Source: Sphingobacteriales bacterium (lineage in GTDB: Bacteria; Bacteroidota; Bacteroidia; Sphingobacteriales; Sphingobacteriaceae). From it: DNA of 35,415 nucleotides. Under the pieces are notes generated by a model. That model did not search any database. It had not been told where the DNA came from and was given only the letters and a program-made list of their open reading frames with translations. Shown here piece after piece: positions 8,511-34,881 of the stretch; positions within the stretch are counted from its first letter, which is position 1, and every line of letters starts with the position of its first letter. Position numbers and translations under genes: made by a program. The stretch lies in the NCBI GenBank assembly GCA_004292865.1, contig RDXP01000120.1, positions 1 through 35,415 of the forward strand, written 5' to 3'.

Positions 8511-11500
8511 TTATTTAATAAGCAATTGCTGTGTACCTAAGCCATCTACATTTAAAATATAAACTCCAGCCGAAGGTTTTTCACTAAGTTTTATTTCAAA
8601 TTTACCGTTATTTACCCTTTGTTTTCCTTTGTAAATTAACTGCCCGTGTAAGCTAAATAGTTTAACATCAACAGTTTTAAGGTTTATTTTATTAGAGGTT
8701 ACAAAAATACTATTTCCAGTAACTGGGTTAGGGTAGGTGTTCCACTCATCGTTAGCAGCCAAGTCAACATTTACATCACGTATTTCTACACTGCCTTTAT
8801 CGCCATTTATATCGGTTTGGCTTAGGCGATAATAGTTTACACCTTGGGCTGGTGTTTTATCAATAAATGAATAAGCTTGTGCAACGTTTCCGTTTCCTTT
8901 AGTGGCTATTTGCGTTAAAAAATCGAATGTTTTACCATCCACACTTCGTTCAATTGTAAAATAGTTATTGTTGGTTTCGCTTGCTGTATTCCAGTTTAAA
9001 ACCACATTGCCATTGCTAGCGAGTTTGGCCGTATAGCGGCTTAAAGTTATAGGAAGTACTGCGCCTTGTAATTCAAAAACCGATATATTTCCACTTATTT
9101 CGTTGGCTATCATTACATAAGGTTTACCAGTTGGGCTACTTATTGCATCAATATAAATAATACCTTCGGGGCCTAAATCACTGGTGGCTTGGGTAGCAGT
9201 ACGGTTATTTTTATAATCAACAAATTTAACATTTGCAGGGTCGGTAATGTTGTACACCATTATACCGCCTATACGCTCTAAACCTACAAAAGCATACACC
9301 TTACCAGCAATGGTTGCAAGGGTAACGCCTTCGGGCTCGGGCCCTTTAGCTCGGCTACGGTTTTTTAATGTTGTGCTACCGTTATCGGCATTAAAAAATG
9401 CTGCGGTAATAGGCGATTTTGAAGTTATCAACTCCATATCATCTTTACTATCATAAACTATGCTTTTAGTATCAATATCAAAAATAGAAAACGACCTAGC
9501 ACCTGGCATTAGCAATTCATCATAATCGCCATCGCCATCAGTATCGCCATTAAAGCTCGATATACGTAACCTACCAATGTTAAAACTTTCTTTTAAAACC
9601 TCGGCATTAGGGAAAATTGTTGGGTCTAAAGTTACAGCATCTACGGTGGTACGTTCTACAAAAGTACCGTATTCTTTCTCGTCGCCTTCGTTGGCGGTAA
9701 CCAGGTAGGTTTTACCGTTGGCGGTATAATTTGCAATACCATCTGGCTCGAAATATGATTTTACTGGGAAGTTAGCAATATGAACCTTGCCGCTATTATC
9801 CGATGCATCTAAACCGCTACCTACTGTGTTAAAATCTTTTTTACCTAATGGCCAAATACTGGTGTAAGTATTGGTAACTAAATCTATTTCGGCAATGGCA
9901 TTGTTTTCTTGCAATACTACCCAAGCTTTTTTGCTATCGGCAGATACGGTTACGTACTCGGGTTCAAAATCTTGCGAAAGCGTAGAAGTTAACCTTGTTT
10001 TACGTACACCAGCCGCTATTAAAGTAGCTTCTTGTGCATTAAAACCAGTTAAAAGTAAAGTGGTTACTTTGGTTTGATTTACCGATGCTATGCCACCCGA
10101 AATATCAATAATACTTACCGAACCTTCGGGGTCCACCGTATAAGTTGTATTTGGCTGGCCTTCATTGGCGGTAAATATTTTATTGCCATCGGGCGAAAAA
10201 GTAATCATATCGGGCAATGCACCCACGGTAACTTGTTTTATAAAATCGCCATCGGTAGTAAAAAATACTACTTTACCGTCTAACTGCTCGTTAGCATTAG
10301 GGCAGGCTACTGCAACCACACCATTTTTTACGGCTACGCTGGTAATGCCTCCGTAAGGTGCCATATCTATTGATTTTATCAAAGTTATGGCCGCTGGGTT
10401 TGTAAAATTGGCAATATCTAACCTATCCTGTACCGAGCTTGTCATATATAAACGTTGGCTTGCGGCATCGTGTACCACAATTTCGGTAGTGCTACCTGCC
10501 AGCGTATTGGGTTTAAAACTGCTGGTATAATTAAGCGTAAGTTCTTGCGTGGGTACGGGGGCTTGGCGATCATTATCGCGGATGTAAATTGTAGAAAACT
10601 GTTTGCCCGATAATGCTACGCCGTTTAAATCCTCAAGCGATAGCACAAAATATTCGTCCATTTCGGCCAATAAATCGTTATTGATTGGGATTGTAATCGT
10701 TTGCGTGGTGCTACTGGCAGCGGTAAAGTTTAAAACTTGGGTTGCGTAGGTTATATCGCTTGCGCTGATATTACTAAATGGCGAACCTTTTAAAACTAAT
10801 TTTGCACTGCTAATGGTTGGGTCGGTAAGGGTTAAAACCACATTAACCGAGCCATCGGCTTCGCTTACCGATAAAAAAGTATTTTTAAACGCTATTTGAT
10901 TTGGAGCCGTTGTAAACACCGATGATAAAGTGGTTACAATCGCATTATTGCTAAAATCTTCGATTACATTGGGTTTAATGGCTACATAATATTTTTGGCC
11001 ATTAAGCAATACAGCAGTGGGCACTATATTAATTACCGAACCCGAAATAGTGGCATTAAATGCTACCGTTGCGCCCATTGCATCGTTTACACGGAGTTCG
11101 ATTAGGGAACCTACATTGGCATCTGTTATGGCATTATTATTTATTAACCTAATAGCTTCGTTAAAACTAATTTTGGGATGTGTATTTATAGGCAAATTAA
11201 GCACATTATTTAATGGAGCAAAAACTACCGTGGGAGCAGTAGCATCGGCAATTAGGGTTTTGCCATCAACAGTAAAATTATCAATACGGGTATTACCACC
11301 TGTACCGCCACCTATGGCTGTAAAAGTAATTTTTATTTTAAAGTTAGGGTTATTGTTTACCGCAGCAATTGCGCTAAAATCTAAAGTTTGTAAAACGGGT
11401 ACTTCGGTAATGGCTTGGTTGCTAAATGCTACATAATTTGTACCATCGGTGCTGTATTCTATTACGTGTGTACCAGCTCCTTGGGTAGAGCGACGACCAA

Positions 11501-12386
11501 CGTATTTTACCACAATATCTTTCGAGTTAGTAGTAGGTAAAGCAAAAACCAATGCGCCACCTATGGCATTATCGAAACGTAAATGGTTACCAGCTGCATC
11601 TAAATTACGAGCGTTTAAATTATTGGTATCAAAATTTTGGCCAGTGCTGCTAGCAAAATTTATGGCACTTGTTCCGCCAGCAATGTGCGTTAAACTGCTT
11701 CCAGCAATTAAGGCAATATTTGGGGTGGTTATGGTAGCTACCGATGTTGCGTTATTAAAATTCCAGTAATGCAATAAGGCATCGGCATAAGCAATATCAC
11801 CTTCTAAAGTAAAATTATCGAAACGGTTATTGCCTGCTAAACCGCCTCCACCTTGTGTAAAGCTAATTTTTATTTTAAAGTTAGGATTGTTGTTGGCTCC
11901 TAAAATTGGACTAAAATCTAAGGTTTGCAAAGTAGGGTCGGCAGCTACTGGCATTATGGTTGTAAAATTAATATAGTTAGTACCATCAATGCTATAATCA
12001 ATAATTTGGTTAAATGCACCAGCGGTCGATCGTCGGGTAGCATATTTTACCACCACATTTTTATAACCTGTTGTGGGTAAAGCAAAAACCAAATTACCCC
12101 CCACTGCATTATTAAAACGTAAATGCGCACCAGCCACATCGCTATTGCGGGCATTGGGGTTAGTAGTTTCGAACCCTTGGCCTGTGGTATTGCCAGTTAA
12201 GGGTATTTCGCTATCGGTAATTTTATTGTGTGTAATGCTTGCACCGGGTACTAGTGCAGTATTGGGTGCTAGTAAAGTAGTAAGGGAGGTTGAATTGTTA
12301 AAATTCCAACTGTGTAATAAAGTTTGTGCGTTCGCAACAAAATTTGCGCACAAAAGCACCGCAATAAATAATATTTGTTTTTTCAT
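8511..12386 (-). CDS. Secreted choice-of-anchor I family protein with T9SS-type C-terminal domain
   Basis: 1291 aa; signal peptide MKKQILFIAVLLCANFVANAQ; two N-terminal repeats; Big_5-like TAPTVVFAPLNN; Calx-beta-like segment; choice-of-anchor I motifs (SFNGDTDGDGDYDELLMPGARSFSIFD, GPEGI); C-terminal WNTYPNPVTGNSI...GVYILNVDGLGTQQLLIK. Confidence 0.88.
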   Translation of the reverse strand: MKKQILFIAVLLCANFVANAQTLLHSWNFNNSTSLTTLLAPNTALVPGASITHNKITDSEIPLTGNTTGQGFETTNPNARNSDVAGAHLRFNNAVGGNLVFALPTTGYKNVVVKYATRRSTAGAFNQIIDYSIDGTNYINFTTIMPVAADPTLQTLDFSPILGANNNPNFKIKISFTQGGGGLAGNNRFDNFTLEGDIAYADALLHYWNFNNATSVATITTPNIALIAGSSLTHIAGGTSAINFASSTGQNFDTNNLNARNLDAAGNHLRFDNAIGGALVFALPTTNSKDIVVKYVGRRSTQGAGTHVIEYSTDGTNYVAFSNQAITEVPVLQTLDFSAIAAVNNNPNFKIKITFTAIGGGTGGNTRIDNFTVDGKTLIADATAPTVVFAPLNNVLNLPINTHPKISFNEAIRLINNNAITDANVGSLIELRVNDAMGATVAFNATISGSVINIVPTAVLLNGQKYYVAIKPNVIEDFSNNAIVTTLSSVFTTAPNQIAFKNTFLSVSEADGSVNVVLTLTDPTISSAKLVLKGSPFSNISASDITYATQVLNFTAASSTTQTITIPINNDLLAEMDEYFVLSLEDLNGVALSGKQFSTIYIRDNDRQAPVPTQELTLNYTSSFKPNTLAGSTTEIVVHDAASQRLYMTSSVQDRLDIANFTNPAAITLIKSIDMAPYGGITSVAVKNGVVAVACPNANEQLDGKVVFFTTDGDFIKQVTVGALPDMITFSPDGNKIFTANEGQPNTTYTVDPEGSVSIIDISGGIASVNQTKVTTLLLTGFNAQEATLIAAGVRKTRLTSTLSQDFEPEYVTVSADSKKAWVVLQENNAIAEIDLVTNTYTSIWPLGKKDFNTVGSGLDASDNSGKVHIANFPVKSYFEPDGIANYTANGKTYLVTANEGDEKEYGTFVERTTVDAVTLDPTIFPNAEVLKESFNIGRLRISSFNGDTDGDGDYDELLMPGARSFSIFDIDTKSIVYDSKDDMELITSKSPITAAFFNADNGSTTLKNRSRAKGPEPEGVTLATIAGKVYAFVGLERIGGIMVYNITDPANVKFVDYKNNRTATQATSDLGPEGIIYIDAISSPTGKPYVMIANEISGNISVFELQGAVLPITLSRYTAKLASNGNVVLNWNTASETNNNYFTIERSVDGKTFDFLTQIATKGNGNVAQAYSFIDKTPAQGVNYYRLSQTDINGDKGSVEIRDVNVDLAANDEWNTYPNPVTGNSIFVTSNKINLKTVDVKLFSLHGQLIYKGKQRVNNGKFEIKLSEKPSAGVYILNVDGLGTQQLLIK
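11255..12323 (-). repeat. Internal tandem duplication (two ~175-aa domains) in the secreted protein
   Basis: LLHSWNFNNSTS...HLRFNNAVGGNLVFALPTT...NNNPNFKIKISFT...NRFDNFTLEG versus LLHYWNFNNATS...HLRFDNAIGGALVFALPTT...NNNPNFKIKITFT...TRIDNFTVDG. Confidence 0.85.
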
Positions 12387-12590
12387 AATTCTTAAAATTG
12401 TTAATGTGTTTAAGATTACGAAAGTATTGCACCAGCTTTAGGTAGCTGTAAATTTTGTGTAATGTAATTGGTATTTTATTGTGATGATAATGTTAATGGA
12501 TAGTGCTTTAGGTTTACGTAAAATTAATGTGAGAAAGCGTTTGCCAAATAATTTTAAATCAATTATATTTAAAATAAAAAAATTTCAACT

Positions 12591-14300
12591 ATGCGTTTAT
12601 TTTATTCTAGTTTATTGTGCATCTTATTATCAGTATCCTTATTTGCCCAAAGCAGCAAAAACAACAACAATCCCGATTTAATTTTATTTAACGGTAAAAT
12701 ATTTACAGGCAACAATACCAATTTAACTCAAGCAATTGCAATAAAAAATAACCGCATTGTAAGGGTTGGTACAAGCCAGCAAATTAAAAAATTGGCAAAA
12801 AAAGGTACTCGTTTTATTAATTTAGAGGGTAAAATGGTAATGCCAGGCATTAACGATGCGCATATTCATTTTTTATCGGGTTCGCTGGGCTTAACTAAAA
12901 TAAATTTGAACGATTGCACCACCGAACAAGAAGCATTAGATAGTATTGCTGATTATGCCAAAAAAAATCCCACCAAAAAATGGATATTAGGCATGGGTTG
13001 GCAGTACAAAATTTTTAAAAATGGGATGCCCAATAAAAGCAGTTTAGATAAAATTATAAGCGATAAACCAGTTTTTATCGAATCGTACGATGGCCATAGT
13101 GCCTGGGCCAATAGTAAAGCATTGGAAATGGCGGGCATAAACAGCGAAACAAAATTTAACGGTTTTGGCGAAATTATTAAAGATGCACAAGGCCAACCAA
13201 CTGGCGCAATTACCGAGGCAGCTTGTTATTTGGTTGATAAATTTATACCCGAACCCACCCGAACCGAAAAAATTGAGGCATTAAAAACAGGTATGAAATA
13301 TGCTGCCACGCTGGGCATAACCAGCATACAAAACGCAAGCGGTACTATTGAAGAGTTTGAGTTGTACCAATATTTACTTAAAAAAGGATTAATAACTTTA
13401 CGGTCGTCAACGGCTTTTAGTGCTGGAAACAATACTAGCCAAGCCGATATAAATAGCTTTGTAAAATTAAAAAACAGTATGGCCAGCAACCCATTTTTAA
13501 AAGCGGGTGCTATAAAATTTGTATTAGATGGCGTGATAGAATCGCACACGGCAGTAATGCTAAACCCGTACAGCGATGTGCCTAAAACAGCCGAAACCGC
13601 CAATGGTAAAATAGCCTTGGATTACAAAGTTTACAAAAAATTAGTTACCCTGTTTGATACATTAGGTTTCCAAATATACACCCACGCCATTGGCGACAGT
13701 TCGGTAAGGGCGGCATTAAATGCGTATGAATTTGCAAAAAACACCAACCAAACTTATAACCGAAGACACCGTATTGAGCATATTGAACAAAGCAATACTA
13801 TGGATATACCAAGGTTTGCAAAACTGGGTGTTTTGGCAAGTATGGAACCCATACACGCCGACCCTGGCACAATAGATGTATGGGCTAAAGCCGTTGGAAA
13901 TGAGCGTTTACCGTTTTCGTTTGTGTGGAATACGATTTTAAAAAACAAGGTAAAATTAGTTTTTAGTAGCGATTGGCCTGCTTGTATAACTCCTAACCCT
14001 ATGCGTGGTTTACACAACGCCGTTAACCGACGAACTATTGATGGATTGCCCGAAAATGGCTGGGTTCCCGAGCAAAAAATTTCTTTATTTGAGGCCTTAA
14101 AAGCCTACACCCAAGGCGGGGCTTATTCATCGTTCGAAGAAAAAATAAAAGGAAAAATTGAAGCTGGTTACCTTGCCGATTTAATTGTGCTATCTCAAAA
14201 TTTATTTGAAATACCGCAAATGGATATTTACAAAACCAAGGTATTAATGACCATGGTTGATGGAAAAATAGTGTATAATAAAGGGATTAAGGTTTTTTGA
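12591..14300 (+). CDS. Exported amidohydrolase family protein (YtcJ-like)
   Basis: 569 aa; signal peptide; VMPGINDAHIHFLSG, YTHAIGDSSVRAALNAYE, SSDWPA, LADLIVLSQNL. Confidence 0.9.
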   Translation: MRLFYSSLLCILLSVSLFAQSSKNNNNPDLILFNGKIFTGNNTNLTQAIAIKNNRIVRVGTSQQIKKLAKKGTRFINLEGKMVMPGINDAHIHFLSGSLGLTKINLNDCTTEQEALDSIADYAKKNPTKKWILGMGWQYKIFKNGMPNKSSLDKIISDKPVFIESYDGHSAWANSKALEMAGINSETKFNGFGEIIKDAQGQPTGAITEAACYLVDKFIPEPTRTEKIEALKTGMKYAATLGITSIQNASGTIEEFELYQYLLKKGLITLRSSTAFSAGNNTSQADINSFVKLKNSMASNPFLKAGAIKFVLDGVIESHTAVMLNPYSDVPKTAETANGKIALDYKVYKKLVTLFDTLGFQIYTHAIGDSSVRAALNAYEFAKNTNQTYNRRHRIEHIEQSNTMDIPRFAKLGVLASMEPIHADPGTIDVWAKAVGNERLPFSFVWNTILKNKVKLVFSSDWPACITPNPMRGLHNAVNRRTIDGLPENGWVPEQKISLFEALKAYTQGGAYSSFEEKIKGKIEAGYLADLIVLSQNLFEIPQMDIYKTKVLMTMVDGKIVYNKGIKVF

Positions 14301-14370
14301 TAATGGGATAATATGATTGGGTTTAGTTTTAATAAACGTAAACTATGCCATATCTTTCAAAGATACTGGC

Positions 14371-15027
14371 TCACAAATTTTCGATTTTGTTTAACCAATT
14401 ATTAAATCTATAACTTTTATTTCTAATTTTTTCTAAACCAATAGCATCAGCTAAATAATTGCCATAAACAACCTTATTGTAACCTTTTATAATTCTTTGC
14501 AACCTATTCGATGGTGATGTTTCTTTTTTATCATTTATCATTTCGGGGTTACTAAAGTCAATAAAAGTTTGTTTTAACTCTTCAATACCCACTAGTTCGT
14601 GTGTAGGGATTTGCTCAAAAAAAACATAAATTTCTGTAAATAAAAGCCCCTCAAATTCGTGAAGTTGAATATATGGTAAATACCTGTATCTAAATTGCTC
14701 ATCAATATCTTCAAGCATTTTTGTTTCCAAAAAATCCATTCTAAAATTCTTGTCAACTACATTTAAAGATTCGTCCCAACTAGGAAATTGATATTTACTA
14801 TACAGCCCATAATAGTCGATTAAAGTAGTTACAAACGCGGTTTTATCATTTTTAAGATGAAGCGTAATTTGCTTTTTTAATTCGCTCCATTTTACCATAC
14901 CGCCCATTGTTTTTTTAATTAATGGCGATTGAATATGAATATTTTTGCTTGCAAAAAAAGGGGAAATAATTTTGGTGCAAAACTCTTTTTCTGTTTCTCC
15001 TTCGCAAATAATAATAACTCGCTTCAT
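14371..15027 (-). CDS. DUF4276 family protein (putative TOPRIM-like)
   Basis: 218 aa; IICEGETEKEF, FVTTLIDYYGLY, YIQLHEFEGLLF, C-terminal ADAIGLEKIRNKSYRFNNWLNKI, typical of DUF4276. Confidence 0.88.
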   Translation of the reverse strand: MKRVIIICEGETEKEFCTKIISPFFASKNIHIQSPLIKKTMGGMVKWSELKKQITLHLKNDKTAFVTTLIDYYGLYSKYQFPSWDESLNVVDKNFRMDFLETKMLEDIDEQFRYRYLPYIQLHEFEGLLFTEIYVFFEQIPTHELVGIEELKQTFIDFSNPEMINDKKETSPSNRLQRIIKGYNKVVYGNYLADAIGLEKIRNKSYRFNNWLNKIENL

Positions 15028-15028
15028 A

Positions 15029-16096
15029 TTAATAATTAGGCTGCCCCGTGGCTATAATGTTTCTTTTCCAGAGGTCATCAATGGTGTAATCATCTAACCA
15101 ATCAACCAATGTTTCACTATTTAATCGGTTAAAAACACTTTCGCCATTTAGTTGGTCAACGGTGATAATATCTTCGGGGGTAAAATGACTAATTAAATCG
15201 GTTGATTGTGTGGCAATAATTACTTGGCAACCATTGGCAGCAACCGATTTAATCATACCCGATAACTTTGAAATTGCCGTTGGGTGAAGCCCCAGTTCGG
15301 GTTCGTCTATAATTATTGTTGTGGGCAAGTTGGGTTGCATAAAAAGGACGGTAAGCGCAATAAATCTTATCGTACCGTCCGATAAATCATTTACACCATA
15401 CGTGGTATCGCTATATTTATCAGTCCATTGAAGGCGAACAAAATTTTCGGCGTTGGGGTACAAATAAAAATCAGAAAAATAAGGTGCAATGGATTGTATG
15501 TTTTTTAAAATTCGGTGATATACTATTTTATTATTTTGCTGTATCCAAAATAAAAAAGCAGCTAAATTATTGCCTTTTTCGTACAAAAAATAAATATCAT
15601 TTTGAATATGAGTTGTTTGAGTAAAAGGTGAATTTTTACCCGTATCGTGGAAGTGATATTTTTTAAATGAGTTTAAATATTTTCTGATATAATCGGCTCT
15701 TGGTAAGGTGTTTTCTTTAATTCTCGATTCATTTTGGTAAGAAGAGATATTAATAGGATTTTCTATAAAAGATTTATCATACCACAAACCCTCCGATACA
15801 AAAACAAAATTGCTTTCCCCTTTTTTAAGTTCGAACGAATATCCATTAAAATCTTGTTTAATTTTAGTGTAAATAATATCTGTTACTTTACTTCCTTTGT
15901 GCAGCATTTTTTCTTCGCCGCCAGCCAAAGCCACATATTCAGTTAACTTTTGCTCATAAACTTTATTAAGAAATTCAAAAAAAGAAATGAAATTAGTTTT
16001 ACCACTACCATTAGCCCCAATAAGTATGTTTAAAGGATTAAGTTTAATTTTAACTTCCTTAATTGATTTATATCCGCTAATTTCTATGTAATCCAT
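15029..16096 (-). CDS. OLD-like/AAA_21 ABC-type ATPase
   Basis: 355 aa; IEISGYKSIKEVKIKLNPLNILIGANGSGKTNF (Walker A), NDLSDGTIRF signature, TIIIDEPELGLHP (Walker B), VIIATQSTDL. Confidence 0.92.
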   Translation of the reverse strand: MDYIEISGYKSIKEVKIKLNPLNILIGANGSGKTNFISFFEFLNKVYEQKLTEYVALAGGEEKMLHKGSKVTDIIYTKIKQDFNGYSFELKKGESNFVFVSEGLWYDKSFIENPINISSYQNESRIKENTLPRADYIRKYLNSFKKYHFHDTGKNSPFTQTTHIQNDIYFLYEKGNNLAAFLFWIQQNNKIVYHRILKNIQSIAPYFSDFYLYPNAENFVRLQWTDKYSDTTYGVNDLSDGTIRFIALTVLFMQPNLPTTIIIDEPELGLHPTAISKLSGMIKSVAANGCQVIIATQSTDLISHFTPEDIITVDQLNGESVFNRLNSETLVDWLDDYTIDDLWKRNIIATGQPNY

Positions 16097-16206
16097 TATT
16101 TAATAGTCGATTTTTTTTAGGATAAGTAAATATAGGTTTTAAAATAATTTTTAAAAATAAAAATCAAACTGCGTAGTTAACATCTGTAAAATTTCCCACT
16201 TTGTTA

Positions 16207-17181
16207 TCAATTATCTCTCTCTACCAATATACTAGCAAATTCTTTTAATATCATTTTCCGTTCATCGGGCGCATCAATTTCGCTTAGTGCTTTCAAGCCA
16301 ATTTCGGCGTAAGCCATCATTTCGGCCTGGGCAATGGCTTTAATATTTAATTTATTATAAATGGCAGTTACGGCCATTACTTTTTCGCTGGGGCTGATTG
16401 TGGCACTATCCAAATACCCATTTAATTGTTGCAGCGTTTGCTCATCAGCCAGTTCGAGGGCTTTTATCAATAAAAAAGTTTTTTTGTTCGATAAAATATC
16501 ACCACCTACTTGTTTCCCAAATTTTTTGGGGTCGCCATATACATCCAATATATCATCTTGCAACTGAAAAGCGATACCCAAGTTTAAGCCAAAATCATAC
16601 AATTTATCGGCCTCGCTTAAGCTAGCATCACCTATTAATGCCCCAATTTTTAACGCTCCGCCCAATAACACAGCCGTTTTAAGCCGTATCATCTCTACAT
16701 AATCCGTTACGGAAACCCGCCTAGCAGTTTCAAAATTCATATCAATTTGCTGCCCCTCGCATACCCCCACCGCAGTATCGTTAAACACACCCAACACCTG
16801 CGGTAAAATAAATACATCTACCTGTATCATCAGCTTAAAAGCCTCTACAAACATTACATCGCCCGACAGTATAGCTACGGATTCGCTCCATTTTTCATGC
16901 ACCGTAGGCTTACCTCGCCTTAGTGGTGCTTTATCCATAATATCATCATGCATTAATGTAAAATTATGGAAGGTTTCGATGGCCAATGCAGGTTTAATAG
17001 CCTTGTATATATCACCTCCAAATAAATCGGTTGCCATTAATACAAGTGCTGGCCGCAGGCGTTTACCGCCCAAAGCCATCAAATAAGCAATAGGTTCATA
17101 CAATTCTTTAGGGTGGCTTGGATATTGTTTATCATCCATTGCCTTTTGTATAATTTGCTGTAATTGTGGGATACTATACAT
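16207..17181 (-). CDS. Polyprenyl synthetase family protein
   Basis: 324 aa; GGKRLRPALV, LMHDDIMDKAPLRRG, FQLQDDILDVYGDPKKFGKQVGGDI. Confidence 0.95.
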   Translation of the reverse strand: MYSIPQLQQIIQKAMDDKQYPSHPKELYEPIAYLMALGGKRLRPALVLMATDLFGGDIYKAIKPALAIETFHNFTLMHDDIMDKAPLRRGKPTVHEKWSESVAILSGDVMFVEAFKLMIQVDVFILPQVLGVFNDTAVGVCEGQQIDMNFETARRVSVTDYVEMIRLKTAVLLGGALKIGALIGDASLSEADKLYDFGLNLGIAFQLQDDILDVYGDPKKFGKQVGGDILSNKKTFLLIKALELADEQTLQQLNGYLDSATISPSEKVMAVTAIYNKLNIKAIAQAEMMAYAEIGLKALSEIDAPDERKMILKEFASILVERDN

Positions 17182-33699: not shown

Positions 33700-34881
33700 A
33701 TGAATGAGTTTATTAAAAGACAAATTGCGCCCATAATAGAAAGCCAAAAAAGTAAGTTTCCGATATTGGCAATAACTGGCCCTAGGCAGTCGGGTAAAAC
33801 AACCTTATTAAAGCAAGTTTTTAACGACTATCAGTATGTAAGTTTAGAAAATCCAAATATACGTTCGTTTGCAACCGACGACCCAGTTGGTTTTTTAAAT
33901 CAATATAGCGATAAAGTTATTTTAGATGAAGTGCAAAGAGTACCTGAGCTTTTTTCTTATTTACAAGGCAAAGTTGACGACTCAAAAATAATGGGACAAT
34001 ACATATTATCTGGTTCTCAAAATTTTCATTTGATAAATAGCATTACGCAAACACTAGCAGGCCGAGTGGCATTATTCAAATTACTTCCCTTTGATTTTAC
34101 AGAATTAAAACCATACAATTTATTAGAAAACCTTTACACAAAAGTAGCTGTAAAAGGATTTTACCCACCAATTTTTGATAGAGTTATTAAACCTTTTATT
34201 TTTTATACCAACTACATTCAAACCTATATTGAAAAAGATGTAACAGAATTATTAAACATTAAAGATTTAAGATTATTTAGAACATTTATAAGTTTATGCG
34301 CAGGCAGGGCAGGGCAATTATTAAATTATAGTGCTTTGGCTAACGATTGCAATATTTCGCATAATACAGCTAAAGCTTGGCTCTCTATTTTAGAAAGCAG
34401 TTATATAATTTTTATGTTACAGCCTTATCACGAAAACTATAACAAAAGACTTGTTAAAACTCCAAAACTATATTTTTATGATACCGGGTTATTAAGTTAT
34501 TTATTGGGTATTAGAAATGCCAATGAAATAGATGAAAACAGGTTAAAGGGGCAAATATTCGAAAACATGATGGTAGCCGAATATCAGAAGCAAAATCACC
34601 ATGGCTACCTACATAACGACTTTTATTTTTGGCAAGATAGTAATTCAAATGAAGTTGATTTATTAACAAAACAGCAAAATGGTTTTTCTATTTTCGAGAT
34701 TAAAGCAACCGAAACCCTAAGCAATAACTTATTTAAAGAGATGGACAGGTTTGAAGAAATTGTTGCGCCAGTAAGTGTAAACAAAACCTTGATTTATGGC
34801 GGAAATGAAAACCAAAACCGAACAAAATATACTGTTTTAGGCTGGCAAAATATATCGGATATTAAGATTGGTAAAATTTAG
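33700..34881 (+). CDS. ATP-binding protein (AAA_14 + DUF4143)
   Basis: 393 aa; ITGPRQSGKTTLLKQ, VILDEVQRVPELFSYLQ, GSQNFHL, LPFDFTEL, C-terminal nuclease-like NEVDLLTKQQNGFSIFEIKAT. Confidence 0.93.
   Translation: MNEFIKRQIAPIIESQKSKFPILAITGPRQSGKTTLLKQVFNDYQYVSLENPNIRSFATDDPVGFLNQYSDKVILDEVQRVPELFSYLQGKVDDSKIMGQYILSGSQNFHLINSITQTLAGRVALFKLLPFDFTELKPYNLLENLYTKVAVKGFYPPIFDRVIKPFIFYTNYIQTYIEKDVTELLNIKDLRLFRTFISLCAGRAGQLLNYSALANDCNISHNTAKAWLSILESSYIIFMLQPYHENYNKRLVKTPKLYFYDTGLLSYLLGIRNANEIDENRLKGQIFENMMVAEYQKQNHHGYLHNDFYFWQDSNSNEVDLLTKQQNGFSIFEIKATETLSNNLFKEMDRFEEIVAPVSVNKTLIYGGNENQNRTKYTVLGWQNISDIKIGKI

Follow-up and report, generated by a model that had tools for sequence, protein, structure and literature searches.

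The pair of minus-strand genes analyzed here, which encodes an OLD-type ATPase and a DUF4276 protein, very probably constitutes a two-gene ATPase and TOPRIM-nuclease candidate anti-phage system working like PARIS and AbiL, and the best reading is that of an ATPase sensor that would restrain a nuclease effector in an abortive-infection type of defense. Within the window (the whole stretch of 35,415 nucleotides that was analyzed), the ORF for the ABC/OLD-family ATPase (AAA_21; 355 aa) occupies positions 15029-16096 and is followed after a 1-nt gap by the ORF for the DUF4276 protein (218 aa), a predicted TOPRIM nuclease effector, at positions 14371-15027; both have ATG starts. The initial annotation had described two minus-strand ORFs in this order and spacing, and its coordinates and strand were verified; the motifs that it had named (Walker A, signature, Walker B, EGETE and LIDYYG) were all found and are conserved among homologues. 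Its finding is real and its interpretation broadly right, but the pair belongs to a candidate family that has already been catalogued.

That family is HEC-01, which is reportedly attributed to a 2024 preprint by Payne et al. The PADLOC model HEC-01A matches the ATPase at 1.2e-134 over residues 1-353 of 355, HEC-01B matches the DUF4276 protein at 1.1e-72 over its full length (residues 1-218), and the two-gene order is identical, which makes the pair a HEC-01 module standing on its own and not new as a kind. HEC denotes 'Hma-embedded candidate', a term derived from a guilt-by-embedding approach, and several HECs, HEC-06 included, have been demonstrated to be active (PMC12988326). The relatives of the pair resemble HEC-01 also in being embedded in Hma or restriction clusters, whereas the window copy stands alone beside metabolic genes. 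In the literature searched, no report of HEC-01 activity, phage resistance or toxicity was found, its only relevant appearance there being in annotations of Desulfovibrio piger genomes, and DUF4276 was not mentioned in any open-access main text searched.

Predicted folds and conserved residues of the two proteins

The domain profile search assigns the ATPase to the ABC-type AAA_21/AAA_15 families (E 5.5e-25), and in an alignment of 42 sequences its key motif residues are invariant or nearly so. The Walker A motif GANGSGKT (residues 27-34; 15995-16018, minus strand) has G27, N29, G30, G32 and K33 invariant, the ABC signature LSDGT (residues 238-242; 15371-15385, minus strand) has S239, D240 and G241 invariant, and the Walker B and D-loop segment IIIDEPELGLHP (residues 261-272; 15281-15316, minus strand) has D264, E265, P266, L268, G269, H271 and P272 invariant. 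The AF2 model (pLDDT 93.2) finds fold matches in the PDB to retron/Septu PtuA, TsOLD, GajA and Rad50/SMC heads, with PtuA-type ATPases as the best of these, and the protein accordingly models as an OLD/GajA/PtuA/Rad50-type head.

The DUF4276 protein matches PF14103 at E 1.6e-51 and yields an AF2 model with pLDDT 95.1 and pTM 0.90. The best Foldseek match of this model in the PDB is 6nk8_B, the C-terminal TOPRIM region of the Class 2 OLD protein of Burkholderia pseudomallei (Bp OLD), with a probability of 0.98, whole-chain TM-scores of 0.47/0.49 and an E-value of 6.7e-3, which is a moderate and not a decisive match. Because this E-value is modest and unrelated models from a viral structure library reach similar ones, but with lower TM-scores, the fold match would not convince by itself; the residue counterparts described below add weight to it. 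The viral structure library returned nothing informative for the DUF4276 model, PDB searches with the single sequence or a profile returned nothing meaningful, and PHROGs contains no DUF4276 family. No novelty is claimed for the fold assignment, since a 2020 classification of ABC ATPases may already have treated DUF4276 as TOPRIM.

What does the predicted active site look like? In Bp OLD, metal A is bound by E400, D455 and D457 and metal B by E404, T506 and E508, with K562 as the lysine (PMC7049728). Five of these six metal-ligand positions and the catalytic lysine have near-invariant counterparts in DUF4276 in the same order, a mapping that is one of order and spacing and not of spatial overlap. 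The EGETE motif (14989-15003, minus strand, as for the residues that follow) contains E9 and E13, the predicted ligands of metals A and B equivalent to E400 and E404, which share the +4 spacing of Bp OLD and are kept in 67 and 68, respectively, of 68 sequences. D71-x-Y73 of the LIDYYG motif (14809-14817), where a predicted strand (residues 64-71) ends, would be the counterpart of the TOPRIM DxD; D71, corresponding to D455, is present in all 68 sequences, and position 73, where OLD has D457, is tyrosine in 64 and phenylalanine in 4. E124-x-E126 within QLHEFEGLLF (14650-14658) supplies the predicted metal B ligands in place of T506 and E508, and K185 (14473-14475), in the C-terminal helical part, would correspond to K562; all three are found in 68 of 68. 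The spacings in DUF4276 and Bp OLD are 62 versus 55 residues from glutamate to aspartate, 53 versus 51 from aspartate to the next pair, and 59 versus 54 from that pair to the lysine. The assignment of DUF4276 as a TOPRIM-like effector is therefore supported by both its predicted fold and catalytic residues that match the Class 2 OLD TOPRIM region, in line with the TOPRIM type proposed in the initial annotation.

Relation to named defense systems

PARIS resembles the pair in that an OLD-type ABC ATPase is split from a TOPRIM effector; infection is sensed by an assembly of its ATPase, which then switches on a TOPRIM nuclease that cuts tRNA (PMC12409363, PMC12839542). In PARIS the trigger is Ocr and the target is tRNA-Lys. 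The effector of PARIS, AriB, is a DUF4435 protein, whereas that of the window is a DUF4276 protein with no profile similarity to DUF4435 detectable by HHalign (probability 0.2, against a DUF4435 set of only 4 sequences). Domain and PADLOC profile searches gave no AriB/DUF4435 match in the pair, and AriA models match the ATPase at up to 2.1e-26, far more weakly than HEC-01A does. Membership in PARIS is rejected because the DUF4435 part is missing. OLD nucleases and Gabija GajA share the ATPase class, and the C-terminal TOPRIM region of Class 2 OLD resembles DUF4276 in predicted fold, length and catalytic order, but these are single fused proteins where two separate genes are present here. Gabija is rejected as well, since there is no fused GajA and no GajB/UvrD-type helicase adjoining the window copy. 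Septu and retron PtuAB systems, whose PtuA supplies the best structural matches of the ATPase, have an HNH nuclease as partner instead of a TOPRIM-like one, and a reverse transcriptase is absent here.

The effector shares profile similarity with RloB, which has been tied to the OLD TOPRIM and to AbiLii (PMC10440598). AbiL (AbiLi/AbiLii) and RloA/RloB are likewise two-gene systems of an ATPase and a TOPRIM-like effector; in AbiL, toxicity resides in the effector AbiLii, and RloB is also found in Type I restriction operons (PMC10440598). Profile comparison of DUF4276 with RloB gives a probability of 74% (P 2.9e-5) over the EGxTE motif, the comparison with OLD C-termini being weak (about 20%) at that same motif, and RloB also conserves an FE motif similar to that of DUF4276 at the metal B position. 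RloB has a full DxD where DUF4276 has DxY/F, the PADLOC AbiLii model matches the DUF4276 protein at only 0.0071, and the similarity is distant and confined to the N-terminal motif, so that the protein does not qualify as an RloB/AbiLii effector. The window's own genome also contains an AbiL/Rlo-like pair in which an ATPase gene adjoins an RloB gene (G000:C146, L217:2605-4596) and a second RloB gene (G000:C188), and thus holds several two-gene ATPase/TOPRIM-like modules. Elsewhere in that genome (G000:C135, L216:1058-2809) a second ATPase gene (403 aa) is followed by an apparently broken DUF4276-like gene: one part is an ORF of 109 aa, and the remainder of the domain match (2561-2809) is read apart from that ORF.

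Distribution, genomic neighborhoods and alternative explanations

A genome-wide scan places an ATPase gene immediately upstream and on the same strand in 78 of 80 DUF4276 loci, and the remaining two matches start no more than about 130 bases from the end of a contig. The pair is sporadic: 3 of 17 other genomes of the genus carry it, as do 7 of the 60 relatives that were searched, a count that takes in the window's own genome, and among 296 genomes sampled from the phylum 56 (about a fifth) have a DUF4276 match. Many copies are chromosomal and others are plasmid-borne, the hosts including Aeromonas, Acinetobacter, Piscirickettsia, Nostoc and Ideonella. A phage or viral origin was considered and rejected, as the phage records and viral contigs searched contain no DUF4276 match. 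Among the plasmid copies, that of Aeromonas media is flanked by helicase and methyltransferase genes, that of A. veronii by a methyltransferase gene and a helicase gene, and that of Ideonella by a methyltransferase gene and an Mrr gene; VapBC adjoins the pair in Acinetobacter, and an AIPR gene adjoins it in Nostoc. The Acinetobacter plasmid, pTR11_2, is mobilizable, 11 kb in length, and also carries the tetracycline efflux gene tet(39).

Such mobility raises the question of whether the pair is a toxin-antitoxin or a plasmid or island maintenance module, in which the DUF4276 protein would be the toxin, the ATPase its antitoxin, and addiction, not mainly phage defense, the function. Tests in E. 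coli showed that TOPRIM_OLD and RloB-type toxins were neutralized by AAA ATPases of this class (PMC10440598), and the plasmid copies, one of them beside VapBC on an 11-kb plasmid, would suit such a role. However, embedding in restriction operons points to defense, and many copies reside on chromosomes; moreover, this explanation overlaps with the defense reading because PARIS and AbiL themselves act as toxin-antitoxin-like defenses. Addiction as the main function is for these reasons unlikely, although it is the strongest of the alternatives.

Within the genus itself, a restriction operon encloses the pair in two of the three genus-mates that have it (loci L127 of G014 and L128 of G016). The Type I operon has the order hsdM-hsdS-PDC-S42-[pair]-PDC-S05-hsdR, and the Type III operon of the other genus-mate has the order DrmD-type helicase-PDC-S02-MTase_III-[pair]-Ppl-REase_III. 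The presence of the PADLOC candidates PDC-S42, PDC-S05, PDC-S02 and Ppl beside HEC-01 at these loci indicates that several defenses are nested in one operon. Across 12 Bacteroidota loci, methyltransferase, ATPase, DUF4276 and Res genes, in this order, form a tight same-strand cassette with junctions of mostly a few bases. Type I, Type III or DrmD-type neighbors lie within 5 kb at no fewer than 24 of 102 loci, a count that includes two genomes entered twice and is a lower bound owing to short contigs. At a threshold of 1e-15, 122 flanking ORFs match 292 PADLOC models, as against 11 models for 122 control ORFs taken from arbitrary parts of mostly the same genomes, with no restriction-modification models among those 11; many PADLOC models are redundant, and the ratio therefore overstates the number of independent genes. 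The neighborhood check suggested in the initial annotation thus revealed no conserved housekeeping neighborhood, and an enrichment near restriction genes.

Might the pair then have no independent function and simply work as part of the neighboring restriction or Hma system, for instance as a DNA-end-processing nuclease? The tight cassettes at 12 loci and the Type I and Type III operons of the genus-mates would fit such an accessory role. Nevertheless, restriction genes are absent from the surroundings of the window copy and of many relatives, and the kind of partner differs between loci (Type I, Type III, Hma-like, toxin-antitoxin and AIPR), which fits an independent cassette and makes dependence on restriction improbable.

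The window copy itself lies outside any defense island, between a polyprenyl synthetase gene (16207-17181) and an amidohydrolase gene (12591-14300), with no restriction genes nearby. The initial description of housekeeping genes on both sides is half right, in that the amidohydrolase gene shares with the pair a stretch of about 3.7 kb (approximately 12497-16205) that is missing in the closest relative. The rationale for this statement lies in the relative's site, where the synthetase gene (93% identical) ends at 1450 and the next gene, a homologue of window positions 8511-12386, starts at 1577, leaving the two only 126 bp apart. The edges of the insertion were searched for direct or inverted repeats of the kind that would mark a mobile element, and no convincing ones were found. 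Either this genome gained the stretch or the relative lost it, and the low GC content of the pair (28.9% and 32.2% for the two genes versus 36.4% for the window) favors gain. The amidohydrolase was rejected as a partner, no relative of it being found near any other copy, and it is treated as co-inserted cargo or a chance neighbor. Elsewhere in the window, a PD-(D/E)XK nuclease-family transposase gene (PF12784; 21643-22515, minus strand) lies between metabolic genes, and an AAA_14/DUF4143 ATPase is encoded near the window's end (33700-34881, plus strand). A DNA repair or housekeeping role, in which a RecF/SMC-like ATPase and a TOPRIM protein would act in the manner of RecF/RecR with no part in anti-phage defense, would suit the resemblance of the ATPase to SMC/Rad50/RecF heads and the metabolic neighbors of the window copy, but it is highly improbable for a pair that just 3 of 17 genus-mates and roughly one in five of the phylum genomes sampled possess and that is missing from the closest relative's site, is borne on plasmids and is enriched near restriction genes.

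Proposed mechanism and significance

How might such a pair act against a phage? The analogy with PARIS and OLD drawn in the initial annotation, that of a candidate immune module with a split ATPase and TOPRIM nuclease, is supported by the predicted folds of both proteins, the conserved residues, the embedding in restriction operons and the carriage on plasmids. By this analogy we infer the inhibition, the trigger, the nuclease activity with its target and the protective outcome as follows. Most likely, the OLD-type ATPase would assemble, bind the DUF4276 protein and suppress its activity. On infection, a cue, which given the presence of relatives in restriction operons is plausibly an interference of the phage with restriction, would alter the ATPase, which would then release or activate the DUF4276 protein. 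The effector would cleave nucleic acid (RNA or DNA) with two metal ions, and this cleavage would stop growth or phage replication. Restraint by the ATPase, with release when restriction is inhibited, would in turn explain why relatives are found inside restriction operons.

A more specific and tentative hypothesis, which we consider possible though doubtful, is that HEC-01 is a restriction guard, whose ATPase would sense phage anti-restriction and whose DUF4276 protein would be an altered DxY/F TOPRIM nuclease with its own RNA or DNA target. If so, DUF4276 would represent a distinct class of TOPRIM effector beside AriB, RloB/AbiLii and OLD.

The present analysis adds to the catalogued family a map of TOPRIM residues that includes the DxY/F deviation, the embedding in restriction operons within the same genus, and an empty site. 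DUF4276, a widespread domain of unknown function, is now linked, by prediction, to the catalytic core of OLD-type TOPRIM proteins with its residues named, and these residues make an uncharacterized candidate defense system directly testable. HEC-01 would thereby add another pairing of OLD-type ATPases with exchangeable nuclease effectors.
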